In this document: positions 27,954 through 30,836 of the stretch, in pieces | How the letters are laid out: each line of letters begins with the position of its first letter | Numbering within the stretch: position 1 is the stretch's first letter | Origin: Epsilonproteobacteria bacterium tcs-49 | GTDB lineage: Bacteria > Campylobacterota > Campylobacteria > Campylobacterales > Sulfurovaceae | NCBI GenBank assembly: GCA_002049495.1 | Contig: LLYS01000010.1 | Location: forward strand, 1-64,000 | DNA: 64,000 nt | Reading direction: 5' to 3' | Notes under the pieces: generated by a model | Database searches by the model: none | What the model saw: only the letters and a program-made list of their open reading frames with translations | Told to the model about the DNA's origin: nothing | Translations under genes and position numbers: made by a program

Positions 27954-28682
27954 CTAGAGTGCTACTGTTTTAAACGGATTTTTAGAATTTGAAATTATAA
28001 CCGAAATATCCAAATTTTTCAAATCAGAGCTTAAAGCGTCGGCAAAAAACTTTTCGCTCTCGTAGTGACCGATATCGACAAGCATCAAATCCTGCTGCTG
28101 CGCCTTCATCGCTTCGTGGTATTTGATATCGCCGGTTAAGAAGCAATCCGTTTCGCACATATCCATCATGGAACTGCCGCTCCCGGTGGTCAGCGCAACG
28201 CCGCTGAGTTCGGGTTTTTCATTGACCACTTTGAAATTATCCAGCCCCAGTTTCCGCCCCAGCAGCGCATACAGCTCCTTTGTCGCGAAGCGCCGGGTAT
28301 CTTGCAGCATAAACTCCGCTTCTTTATCTATGCGCAGTCCCAGCACCCGTTCAAAAACGTAGCGGTTGAGGTGGGTTTTGTCGATGTTGGTGTGCATAGC
28401 GATGACGCTTTGGTTTTTCTGGATCAAACGCCGCATGATATTGGCGGGGTAGTAGTCAAAATCCATCTGCTTCAGCGGAGAAAAGATCAGTGGATGGTGC
28501 ACGAGAAAAAGCGTATCCTCTTCATGCTCTTCAGCCAGTTCCAGCGTCACGTCCAGTGCCAAAACGATGCGTTTTATTTCCTGATCTTTGGCCCCGACGA
28601 GGATACCGCTGTTGTCCCACTTCTCCTGCAGCTCAAAGGGCGAAATTTCGTCTAAATACTCGTAGATCGCGCCTAGTTGCAC
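27954..28682 (-). CDS. Nif3-like dinuclear metal-centre protein
   Basis: 242 aa member of the NIF3/YbgI family, toroid-forming proteins that bind two metal ions. Metal-ligand segments: FLVHHPLIF near 63, AMHTNIDK near 98 and [11 protein letters not shown] near 207. The cellular function is not established, though GTP cyclohydrolase-type roles have been proposed. It overlaps glyQ by ten bases. Confidence 0.9.
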
Positions 28683-29548
28683 GCTTTGACCCTTTCAAGT
28701 CGTTGGCTTTCCTGCTCTTTGTACATCATCGCACACCCTTTGGCAAGGTCGCGGATTTTGAGGATGTAATCCTGCCGCTGGGTCACCGAGATCGCTTTTC
28801 GCGCGTCGAGGGTATTAAACAGGTGTGAAGCAATCATGCACTGATCGTACGCCGGCAGAGGCAGCCCCGCCTCCAAACAGCGGTTGCACTCCTTTTGCGC
28901 ATCTTCAAAGTGGGTAAAAAGCATCTTGGTATCGGCGATTTCAAAGTTGTACTTACTGAATTGGTATTCGCTCTCCTTGTGCACGTCCGCATAGGTGGTA
29001 CCTTCGCTCCAGACGATGTCAAAGACCGACTCAACCCCCTGCAGATACATCGCCAGCCGCTCCGTACCGTACGTGATCTCTACGGCGACGGGATCGCAGC
29101 TGACACCACCCACTTGCTGAAAATAGGTAAATTGCGTCACCTCCATGCCGTTTAGCCACACTTCCCAGCCAAGGCCCCACGCCCCGAGAGTCGGGCTTTC
29201 CCAATTGTCTTCGACAAAGCGGATATCGTGCTCTTTGAGATCAAGCCCCAGGTACTCCAGACTTTTGAGATAAAGCTCCTGGATATTGTCGGGGCTGGGT
29301 TTGATAAGCGTTTGGAACTGATAGTAACTTCCAAGGCGGTTGGGGTTCTCCCCGTAGCGTCCGTCGGTAGGGCGGCGGCTGGGAGCCACGTACGCCGTGG
29401 ACCACGGCGTGGAATCAAGGCTGCGCAAAAGCGTGGCCGGGTGGAAAGTCCCCGCCCCCGCAGGGATATCGTAGGGCTGGACGATATTGCACCCCTCGTT
29501 TGCCCAAAACTCTTGCAGTTTCAGCAGCATCTGGCTAAATGTCATCAT
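28673..29548 (-). CDS. glyQ: Glycyl-tRNA synthetase alpha subunit
   Basis: 291 aa class II catalytic subunit of the tetrameric bacterial glycyl-tRNA synthetase. Conserved stretches: [21 protein letters not shown] near the start, [21 protein letters not shown], and [28 protein letters not shown] in the middle (positions about 115-142). The beta subunit glyS is not in the window, so the pair is split. It heads the block running down to rplS; an extended -10 lies 27 bases upstream. Confidence 0.97.
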
Positions 29549-29574
29549 AAATACACTACCTTGTTTTTTACGTG

Positions 29575-29580
29575 ATTATA
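29575..29580 (-). promoter_or_regulatory. Extended -10 promoter of glyQ
   Basis: TATAAT preceded by TGG on the minus strand, 27 bases upstream of the glyQ start. It would drive the long translation-related block. Confidence 0.6.
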
Positions 29581-29650
29581 CCATAGGGGCGGTTAGGGGG
29601 AGGTAAGCTCGTAAAAGTTGAAATTAAATTTTAATAATCGAAAGTCACAG

Positions 29651-29735
29651 TTAATAGACATCTTTACGATGTTTTACTTTAATCACATCCACAACGATCT
29701 TTTCTTCCATCTTGCGGTAATCGAACGGATAACAT
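29651..29735 (-). pseudogene. Collapsed RelBE-type toxin-antitoxin operon (antitoxin start joined to toxin end)
   Basis: On the minus strand an ATG at 29735, with AAAGGATGAGC upstream, begins MLSVRLP, a typical RHH/RelB-class antitoxin N-terminus. Within CGATTACCG the reading changes: in the +1 frame the sequence continues as DYRKMEEK and ends VIKVKHRKDVY followed by TAA at 29651, the classic RelE/ParE toxin C-terminus. Everything between (most of the antitoxin and the first three quarters of the toxin) is missing. The nine shared bases could be the microhomology of a deletion. No functional product is expected. Confidence 0.6.
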
Positions 29736-29744
29736 GCTCATCCT

Positions 29745-29772
29745 TTGTATTATATGTCATACAAGTATTATA
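29745..29772 (-). promoter_or_regulatory. Leftover toxin-antitoxin promoter and operator
   Basis: Extended -10 TGC-TATAAT lies at 29772-29767 (minus strand). Downstream, TTGTAT (29745-29750) and ATACAA (29759-29764) form a 6-bp inverted repeat spaced by eight bases, as expected for an antitoxin operator next to its own promoter. A second TATAAT lies inside at 29754-29749. Confidence 0.45.
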
Positions 29773-29783
29773 GCACACCGCCC

Positions 29784-30836
29784 CTACTTTTGCAACAATT
29801 CCCGGGGCACGAACATATACACCTCCACCGGTGCTTTCATCCTTCCCGCAAGCCGTTCCGCCGCTTTGCCGTGACCGAAAAAATAATCCACCCGGATCTC
29901 CCCTTTGATCGCGCCGCCTACATCCTGGGCGACCACGTAGCGGTTGACGACTTTTTCTTCGGTTTTTAGATAGAGGGGAAAGCCCAACGGAACGTAGTTT
30001 CTATCCACCGCCACGCTTCGCATGGGGGTCAGCTCCACGCCCAGCGCCCCCGTAGCGCCCTGCTCGCGCTCACGGAAAAAAACATAACTGCTGTTATAAC
30101 CTAAAATCTCATCCATCTTTTCGGGATTGCTTTGCAGATACTTTTTGATACTTTGCAGCGATACCTGCTGCAGATACCCCTTTTCATACATATAGCGCCC
30201 GATGGAGCGGTAGCGGTGCCCGTTTTGATCGGCATACCCGATATTGAGGATTTCGCCGCTGTCAAGCTGCACCTTGCCCGAGCCCTGCACCTGCAAAAAA
30301 AACGCATCGATCTTGCTATCGACGTAGCAGATCGGCGTCGCCTTTGCCAACCCCGCTTCGATATCGTTGCGGTCATAGTAGGGCACGATCTTGTCTCCTT
30401 GTATCTTGCCGCGCAGGCGGTACCCCTCGAGTTCGGGGTAGATTTCGTGCAGCTCGACGGTGTACATATCCTCGGGTTTTTCATACAGGGGGTAAAAGTA
30501 GCGCTTGGTTTTTTCCCTGCTGCCGTGCAGCAGCGGTTCGTAATACCCCGTCATCAACCCCTGTTCCTGCTCGCCCATGACCTTTACGGGGAGAAAATGC
30601 TTTTGAAACTGTTCAAAGGTGGTGATGTTGCTATCGCACTGCCCCTTTAGCAGCGGCTGGTGCTCGCAGCTTTTATAAAAGGTTTGCAAAAACTCCCGAT
30701 CAAAATCCTTTTTCTCAAAGCGGTCCCAACCGCGCTCTTGCAAAGCGGCTTCGCTAAAGTCGGGGTCATACTGTTTCGCGCCGCAGCCGGCAAGCAGCAG
30801 TGCCAAAGCGGCAAGTAAAAAATAGTGCACCTTCAC
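29784..30836 (-). CDS. mltA: Membrane-bound lytic murein transglycosylase A (MltA)
   Basis: 350 aa lipoprotein (lipobox LLAGC near residue 18). MltA barrel with LMTGYYEPLL near 94 and the inserted domain, then the 3D domain with VVAQDVGGAIKGEIRVDYFFGHG, where the catalytic aspartates sit. It cleaves peptidoglycan strands to form 1,6-anhydro ends. It starts two bases after the chemoreceptor gene, so the two are cotranscribed. Followed by the toxin-antitoxin scar. Confidence 0.92.
   Translation of the reverse strand: MKVHYFLLAALALLLAGCGAKQYDPDFSEAALQERGWDRFEKKDFDREFLQTFYKSCEHQPLLKGQCDSNITTFEQFQKHFLPVKVMGEQEQGLMTGYYEPLLHGSREKTKRYFYPLYEKPEDMYTVELHEIYPELEGYRLRGKIQGDKIVPYYDRNDIEAGLAKATPICYVDSKIDAFFLQVQGSGKVQLDSGEILNIGYADQNGHRYRSIGRYMYEKGYLQQVSLQSIKKYLQSNPEKMDEILGYNSSYVFFREREQGATGALGVELTPMRSVAVDRNYVPLGFPLYLKTEEKVVNRYVVAQDVGGAIKGEIRVDYFFGHGKAAERLAGRMKAPVEVYMFVPRELLQK

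Follow-up and report, generated by a model that had tools for sequence, protein, structure and literature searches.

Between the housekeeping genes mltA and glyQ, on the minus strand of the window (the whole stretch of 64,000 nucleotides that was analysed), we found the remnant of a RelB/RelE-type toxin-antitoxin operon, in which the head of the operon runs directly into the end of the toxin gene. With a probability that we put at roughly 0.93, a complete operon of this type formerly stood between mltA and glyQ and was collapsed by one deletion of about 367 bases, likely at a short repeat, which left a remnant that is probably functionless.

The operon remnant between mltA and glyQ

A preliminary description of this DNA, made from the sequence alone, had listed a promoter, a dyad, a ribosome binding site, an antitoxin start (MLSVRLP) and a toxin tail, and all of these are present on the minus strand (Table 1). 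The promoter at 29795-29767 is the sole match in the region 29500-29900, and a TTGCA or TTGAC hexamer is, by eye, similarly placed in several full-length operons; because the same search on shuffled sequences gives 0.9 matches on average, the promoter alone is no proof. The operator-like dyad TTGTATGACATATAATACAA, one arm of which differs by one base from the commonest form in the relatives, aligns with the heads of 16 full operons. The 18-codon frame that opens at the antitoxin start stays, by eye, in frame with the antitoxin for only about eight codons, and all that remains of the antitoxin is its first ~14 codons, recognised by the DNA profile. Likewise, only the last ~14-20 codons of the toxin are left together with their stop; this tail reads DYRKMEEKIVVDVIKVKHRKDVY followed by TAA at 29653-29651, and an ATG-started open frame of 19 codons ends in it. 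Intact antitoxin and toxin genes are absent, about 367 bases being missing from the remnant, which can make neither antitoxin nor toxin. Ribosome-dependent mRNA cleavage and its neutralisation would not be expected of it.

Table 1. Coordinates of the remnant, its parts and its neighbouring genes in the window
Feature	Position	Strand	Basis
Sigma-70-like promoter TTGCAA-17 nt-TATAAT, -35 within the last mltA codons	29767..29795	-	10/12 consensus positions
Operator-like imperfect dyad TTGTATGACATATAATACAA	29745..29764	-	sequence; aligned with relatives
Shine-Dalgarno-like AAAGGA	29741..29746	-	sequence; aligned with relatives
Antitoxin start ATG (MLSVRLP...)	29735-29733	-	sequence
Antitoxin-operon head, operator to about antitoxin codon 14, 2-base gap relative to the profile	29695..29770	-	nhmmer, model 25-103
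Open frame from the antitoxin start, 18 codons + stop	29679..29735	-	by eye
CGATTACCG, nine bases, read here as antitoxin codons RLP only	29715..29723	-	junction scores, 17-operon comparison
Junction zone, 27 bases	29690..29716	-	all junctions within 6.5 bits of the best; nhmmer overlap 29709-29695
RelE-type toxin gene 3' end with stop (TAA 29653-29651)	29645..29709	-	nhmmer, model 453-520
mltA (lytic transglycosylase), upstream neighbour	29784..30836	-	PF03562 E 1.5e-56, PF06725
glyQ, downstream neighbour	28673..29548	-	PF02091 E 1.1e-142

To identify the remnant, 17 full-length operons of the RelB/RelE type, L015 (see below) included, were taken from other genomes and turned into a DNA profile. 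Run against the 64-kb window with nhmmer, this profile gave two significant stretches only, which lie next to each other, collinear, on the minus strand: a head match at 29770-29695 (37.6 bits, E 1e-11, model 25-103) and a tail match at 29709-29645 (24.7 bits, E 7.9e-8, model 453-520). The third-best match in the window scored 3.9 bits, the best match in dinucleotide-shuffled versions of the window 7.4 bits (60 shuffles, 55 of which gave any listed match) and the best in the reversed window 3.7 bits. Separate sequence models of the head (R1, from 16 operons) and of the tail (R2, from 17 operons) reached 51.7 bits with a whole-genome E-value of 1.5e-13 and 40.8 bits at 29652-29712 with a whole-genome E-value of 4.3e-10, respectively, the next tail match having an E-value of 0.02. 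The similarity of head and tail to these operons is not due to chance, and the central claim of the preliminary description, a collapsed RelB/RelE-type operon with its head and toxin tail preserved, is thereby supported. The toxin tail had also been proposed for comparison with the RelE/ParE families; here the bare 23-residue peptide, which is too short for the Pfam library, matched no family. A PF05016 toxin had no match in the genome of the window, and the same search finds PF05016 in nine of 14 control genomes; when the toxin of L010 was searched at 1e-10, 62 of 298 genomes matched, the window's own not being among them. As the genome shows neither a PF05016 toxin nor a close relative of the toxin, the scar is an orphan.

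A genus search of the genome collection returned one genome, the window's own. An MltA search of 149 relatives gave a match in 21, own genome included; the other 20 all belong to other families of the order, with mltA at most 51% identical to that of the window, and the same-family genomes among the 149 yielded no match to it at 1e-20. None of these 20 other mltA loci has glyQ nearby (roughly 1.5 kb of flank examined), an MltA pattern in the genome contig collection gave 24 pattern matches and no relatives, and across the 149 relatives and this collection the mltA-glyQ neighbourhood was not found outside the own genome. The assembly consists of 17 contigs, and the genome is therefore a draft; the remnant occurs in a single copy, well inside contig C2.

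Intact and decayed operons in relatives

When 151 bases were searched as DNA against 199 genomes, 13 genomes, among them that of the window, had a match at E 0.01. Of the remaining 12 matches, the top four (L008-L011) and L015 are operons of the RelB/RelE kind, with two genes, a similar operator, an antitoxin start M/V-[LI]-SVRL and a toxin ending in VIK/VIR-x-x-HRK; the toxin of L015 is interrupted by a stop. At E 0.01 the operon profile does not detect the seven other DNA matches (L012-L014 and L016-L019), including the tail-like match L017 (G157), and they were set aside. Two toxins of the relatives match TIGR02385 (RelE/StbE) and PF05016 (ParE_toxin) above cut-off, and two antitoxins match NF048017 (RelB-like) above cut-off and are also named RHH_1. 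The full operons occupy differing chromosomal places, none of them at mltA-glyQ where the neighbours were read: L008 lies downstream of what we take to be a rho-like gene, L009 presumably downstream of a malic-enzyme-like gene. Seven contigs in the genome collection contain the pattern TTGTATGACATATNATACAA, and the six of these that are titled Sulfurovum all carry full operons; the antitoxin and toxin of L073 are identical to those of the same-family genome G101. The window would therefore come from the family that includes Sulfurovum. Two further carriers of the operator pattern, L072 (a Flavobacteriaceae MAG) and L198 (a viral contig), were discarded, the operon being absent there. A 26-base scar pattern had no match in viral contigs, and the L010 toxin had none in plasmids at 1e-15.

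Head searches of the family and of the order were performed with strict filters, by which weak matches are lost. A head match at E 0.001 was obtained in 39 of the 175 family genomes; 13 family matches reach at least 50 bits, and 12 of them continue into a full operon (among these, L087 is the same operon as L015, whose toxin contains a TAA), the exception being the window. In the order, 26 of 398 genomes have a head match at 1e-6, and of the 17 matches of at least 40 bits only the window and L124 fail to continue into a toxin, as the other 15 do (L120 up to the contig end). Among 198 collected loci, 31 distinct heads score at least 100 bits, 28 of which reach a toxin and three of which (L130, L124 and L139) do not; since these loci were chosen by search, this count is no frequency. 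The most informative case, L130 (G333, another family of the order; 1573-1278, minus strand), retains a whole antitoxin gene followed by an in-frame toxin stub of 18 codons, MFADK+TEVIRVRHRKEVY, the tail part of which scores 14.8 bits (E 1.3e-5), and after the stub comes what is presumably a dnaX-like start. In L130, judged by its sequence, an operon of this family has collapsed independently. L124 and L139, both of G125, have antitoxin genes of the family without a recognisable toxin downstream, the loss being less certain for L124 because a contig end lies 297 bases away, and L169, which scores below 100 bits, is an operon with a damaged toxin. At L154 (G010; 1591-1495, minus strand), the C-terminal third of a related toxin, its start missing, is joined to unrelated sequence. 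The tail-like match L190 (G096) was rejected as probably fortuitous, since no frame resembling a toxin leads up to it.

The family search also gave 33 head matches that score below 50 bits, and frames were read at 15 of them. All 15 are ribbon-helix-helix-like antitoxins of other pairs: nine have an apparent PIN toxin, two have a damaged one (L093 and L115) and four have a toxin that we take to be MazF-like; the PIN name was checked against Pfam at two loci only, being confirmed for L104 and giving no family for the stub of L115. The operator and start region of these PIN-type and MazF-like pairs (L092-L104 and others) resembles the RelBE head, which suggests that similar ribbon-helix-helix control regions serve different toxins. 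L115 lies in the own genome of the window (C3:51400-53900, locus ~1207-1500) and is a second decayed toxin-antitoxin pair, with an 86-codon ribbon-helix-helix-like antitoxin below the Pfam cut-offs and a PIN-like toxin that retains only LIDSGPLIALFDK, followed by unrelated sequence. At L093 (G016, minus strand), an in-frame collapse has reduced a PIN-type toxin to NIALIDSDFDIYR..., in which start and end meet at the IDS codons. The IDSG-like start codons and IDSD-like end codons share 9-11 bases in eight of 13 distinct intact PIN toxins (L098 and L102 among the eight being close kin) and 4-7 bases in the other five, as raw, post hoc counts. From L093 and these counts it follows that PIN-type toxins carry built-in repeats and that, in at least one case, these seem to be where the toxin collapsed; L093 thus appears, from its sequence, to be the kind of microhomology loss that the preliminary description had imagined, in another kind of operon.

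Position of the junction and probable course of the deletion

To place the junction, the remnant was aligned to the operon profile in two parts with one jump. The best junction, after 29695, scores 106.8 bits, and those from 29716 to 29690 all lie within 6.5 bits of it. The head similarity extends to 29695 with a 2-base gap, and the tail match begins at 29709 or 29712, depending on the search; alternatively, the head may run to ~29711 and be followed by the toxin tail with a 3-base gap (104.4 bits). These two junctions are close, and the stretch between them resembles both the antitoxin and the toxin parent. Fixing the precise breakpoint and any microhomology would take the ancestral sequence; the zone spans 27 bases.

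According to the preliminary description, the deletion went through the nine bases CGATTACCG (29723-29715), common to the antitoxin codons VRLP and the toxin codons DYR, a course of events that we consider quite improbable. CGATTACCG can indeed be read in two frames, as RLP in that of the antitoxin and as DYR in that of the tail; moreover, DYR is conserved in the profiled toxins, and in one of the 17 operons, L037, the VRLP and GDYR codons share eight bases, although in another register. A breakpoint at these nine bases is, however, not supported. From DYR to the toxin end the window has 23 residues, against 27 (from DYR, NYR or DYK) in all 17 profiled toxins, which puts DYR four residues too near the end; CGATTACCG occurs in none of the 17 operons, and the other 16 share only 2-5 bases between the VRLP and GDYR codons. 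A toxin starting at CGATTACCG (junction after 29724) requires gaps of nine and three bases in the tail, ignores the antitoxin similarity that extends past these bases and scores 89.1 bits, 17.7 below the best, whereas a junction directly after CGATTACCG (29715), with the nine bases serving the antitoxin only, scores 101.4 bits. For these reasons DYR is read as a probable chance reading of the antitoxin codons RLP.

The stretch missing from the window corresponds to 367 bases in 15 of the 17 operons, 382 in L008 and 373 in L031. A single deletion of this size in an ancestral RelB/RelE-type operon at mltA-glyQ would have brought antitoxin codons ~7-16 up against toxin codons ~63-72 and taken most of the toxin with the remaining antitoxin; the profile shows both ends, and one event would account for what lies between. 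If antitoxin and toxin were removed together, there would have been no phase with a free, unopposed toxin. A small indel, either a 2-base one in the head or a 3-base one in the tail, would have come after or with the deletion. Because antitoxin and toxin parent are both recognisable in the joined zone, a likely mechanism is recombination or slippage between two copies of a short direct repeat, one in antitoxin codons ~7-10 and the other in the codons for EEEI of the toxin. In seven of the 17 operons these codons contain the longest head-tail repeat, which measures nine bases (AGAAGAGAT) in L022 and L026. Across the 17 operons the two places share 4-9 bases, only four in five of them, and the longest repeat exceeds 95% of codon shuffles in L022 and L026 only. 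With two of 17 operons beating the shuffles and five sharing four bases, guidance of the deletion by a repeat is plausible rather than demonstrated.

The parallel collapse in L130 supports the single deletion, as does the fact that each of the 12 other strong family heads carries a full operon and the window alone does not; against it, the operon is intact at mltA-glyQ in no genome examined. Stepwise decay, in which the toxin and later the middle of the antitoxin were eroded by several small deletions and by drift, the two ends surviving by chance, seems unlikely to us. Partial stages of such a course exist in the order (L130, L124, L139 and L015), but in the window the two ends are still well matched and directly adjoin, nothing being left over save the 2- or 3-base gap. 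That same gap would not be expected if an assembly or binning error had simply lost the middle of an intact operon; this possibility is suggested by the draft state of the single assembled genome, and the position of the stretch, in single copy well inside its contig, makes it highly improbable.

A single deletion most likely left a remnant without function, consisting of open frames of 18 and 19 codons and a promoter that may still fire. Very little favours the view that the cell retained it for use, whether of the promoter and operator or of the short toxin-tail frame: the promoter, dyad, ribosome site and ATG-started 19-codon frame do persist, and L130, from another family, has an in-frame frame of 18 codons with a similar toxin tail. 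Against such a use stand the lack of a PF05016 toxin or relative of the toxin in the genome, the mismatch in one arm of the dyad, and the sampling of one genome of the genus only, without a second species showing conservation. In a more specific and even less probable version, the frames of 18-19 codons with a RelE C-terminus in the window and in L130 might encode peptides that bind incoming RelBE antitoxins or toxins and act as anti-addiction decoys. If true, collapse onto the toxin tail would not be neutral wreckage in these two lineages.

Relation to known systems and significance

Compared with type II operons of the RelBE family (NF048017 with TIGR02385/PF05016; L010/L073, L022/L078 and L024), the window shares the operator, the ribosome site, the antitoxin start and the toxin end, in the same order and on the same strand, and differs from the full operons of Sulfurovum and other genomes of the order in missing the ~367 central bases. 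L130 belongs to the same operon family and is likewise collapsed onto the toxin tail; unlike the window, it has a whole antitoxin and an in-frame toxin stub of 18 codons, and it occupies a different site.

Decay of chromosomal toxin-antitoxin loci is in print for E. coli and other chromosomal loci (PMC7167474, PMC7280312 and PMC2890582), including loss by decay of the E. coli chromosomal ccdO157 (Mine et al. 2009, as cited in these three papers), which is of a different family from the window operon and resembles it in the decay of a chromosomal toxin-antitoxin locus. For the toxTA operon of Haemophilus influenzae, PMC6957337 describes natural deletion alleles that inactivate or remove the chromosomal operon, among them a complete deletion with intact flanking genes and two common partial deletions that keep the full-length antitoxin gene. 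Unlike the partial deletions described there, one junction in the window removes most of both genes and keeps both ends. The toxTA alleles and the decay of E. coli and other loci establish loss by deletion. A literature search found no paper on the present mltA-glyQ locus. The scar is a new instance of an established decay route, well resolved and with its breakpoint corrected.

Family searches miss such remnants, as the toxin tail alone matches no Pfam family. The remnant described here is a near base-level fossil of the loss of a chromosomal addiction operon, in which antitoxin and toxin were cut by an apparent single deletion that left the control region and the toxin tail behind. Together with L130, L124, L139, L015 and the PIN-type L093, it forms a small series for asking whether short repeats steer the loss of such operons.
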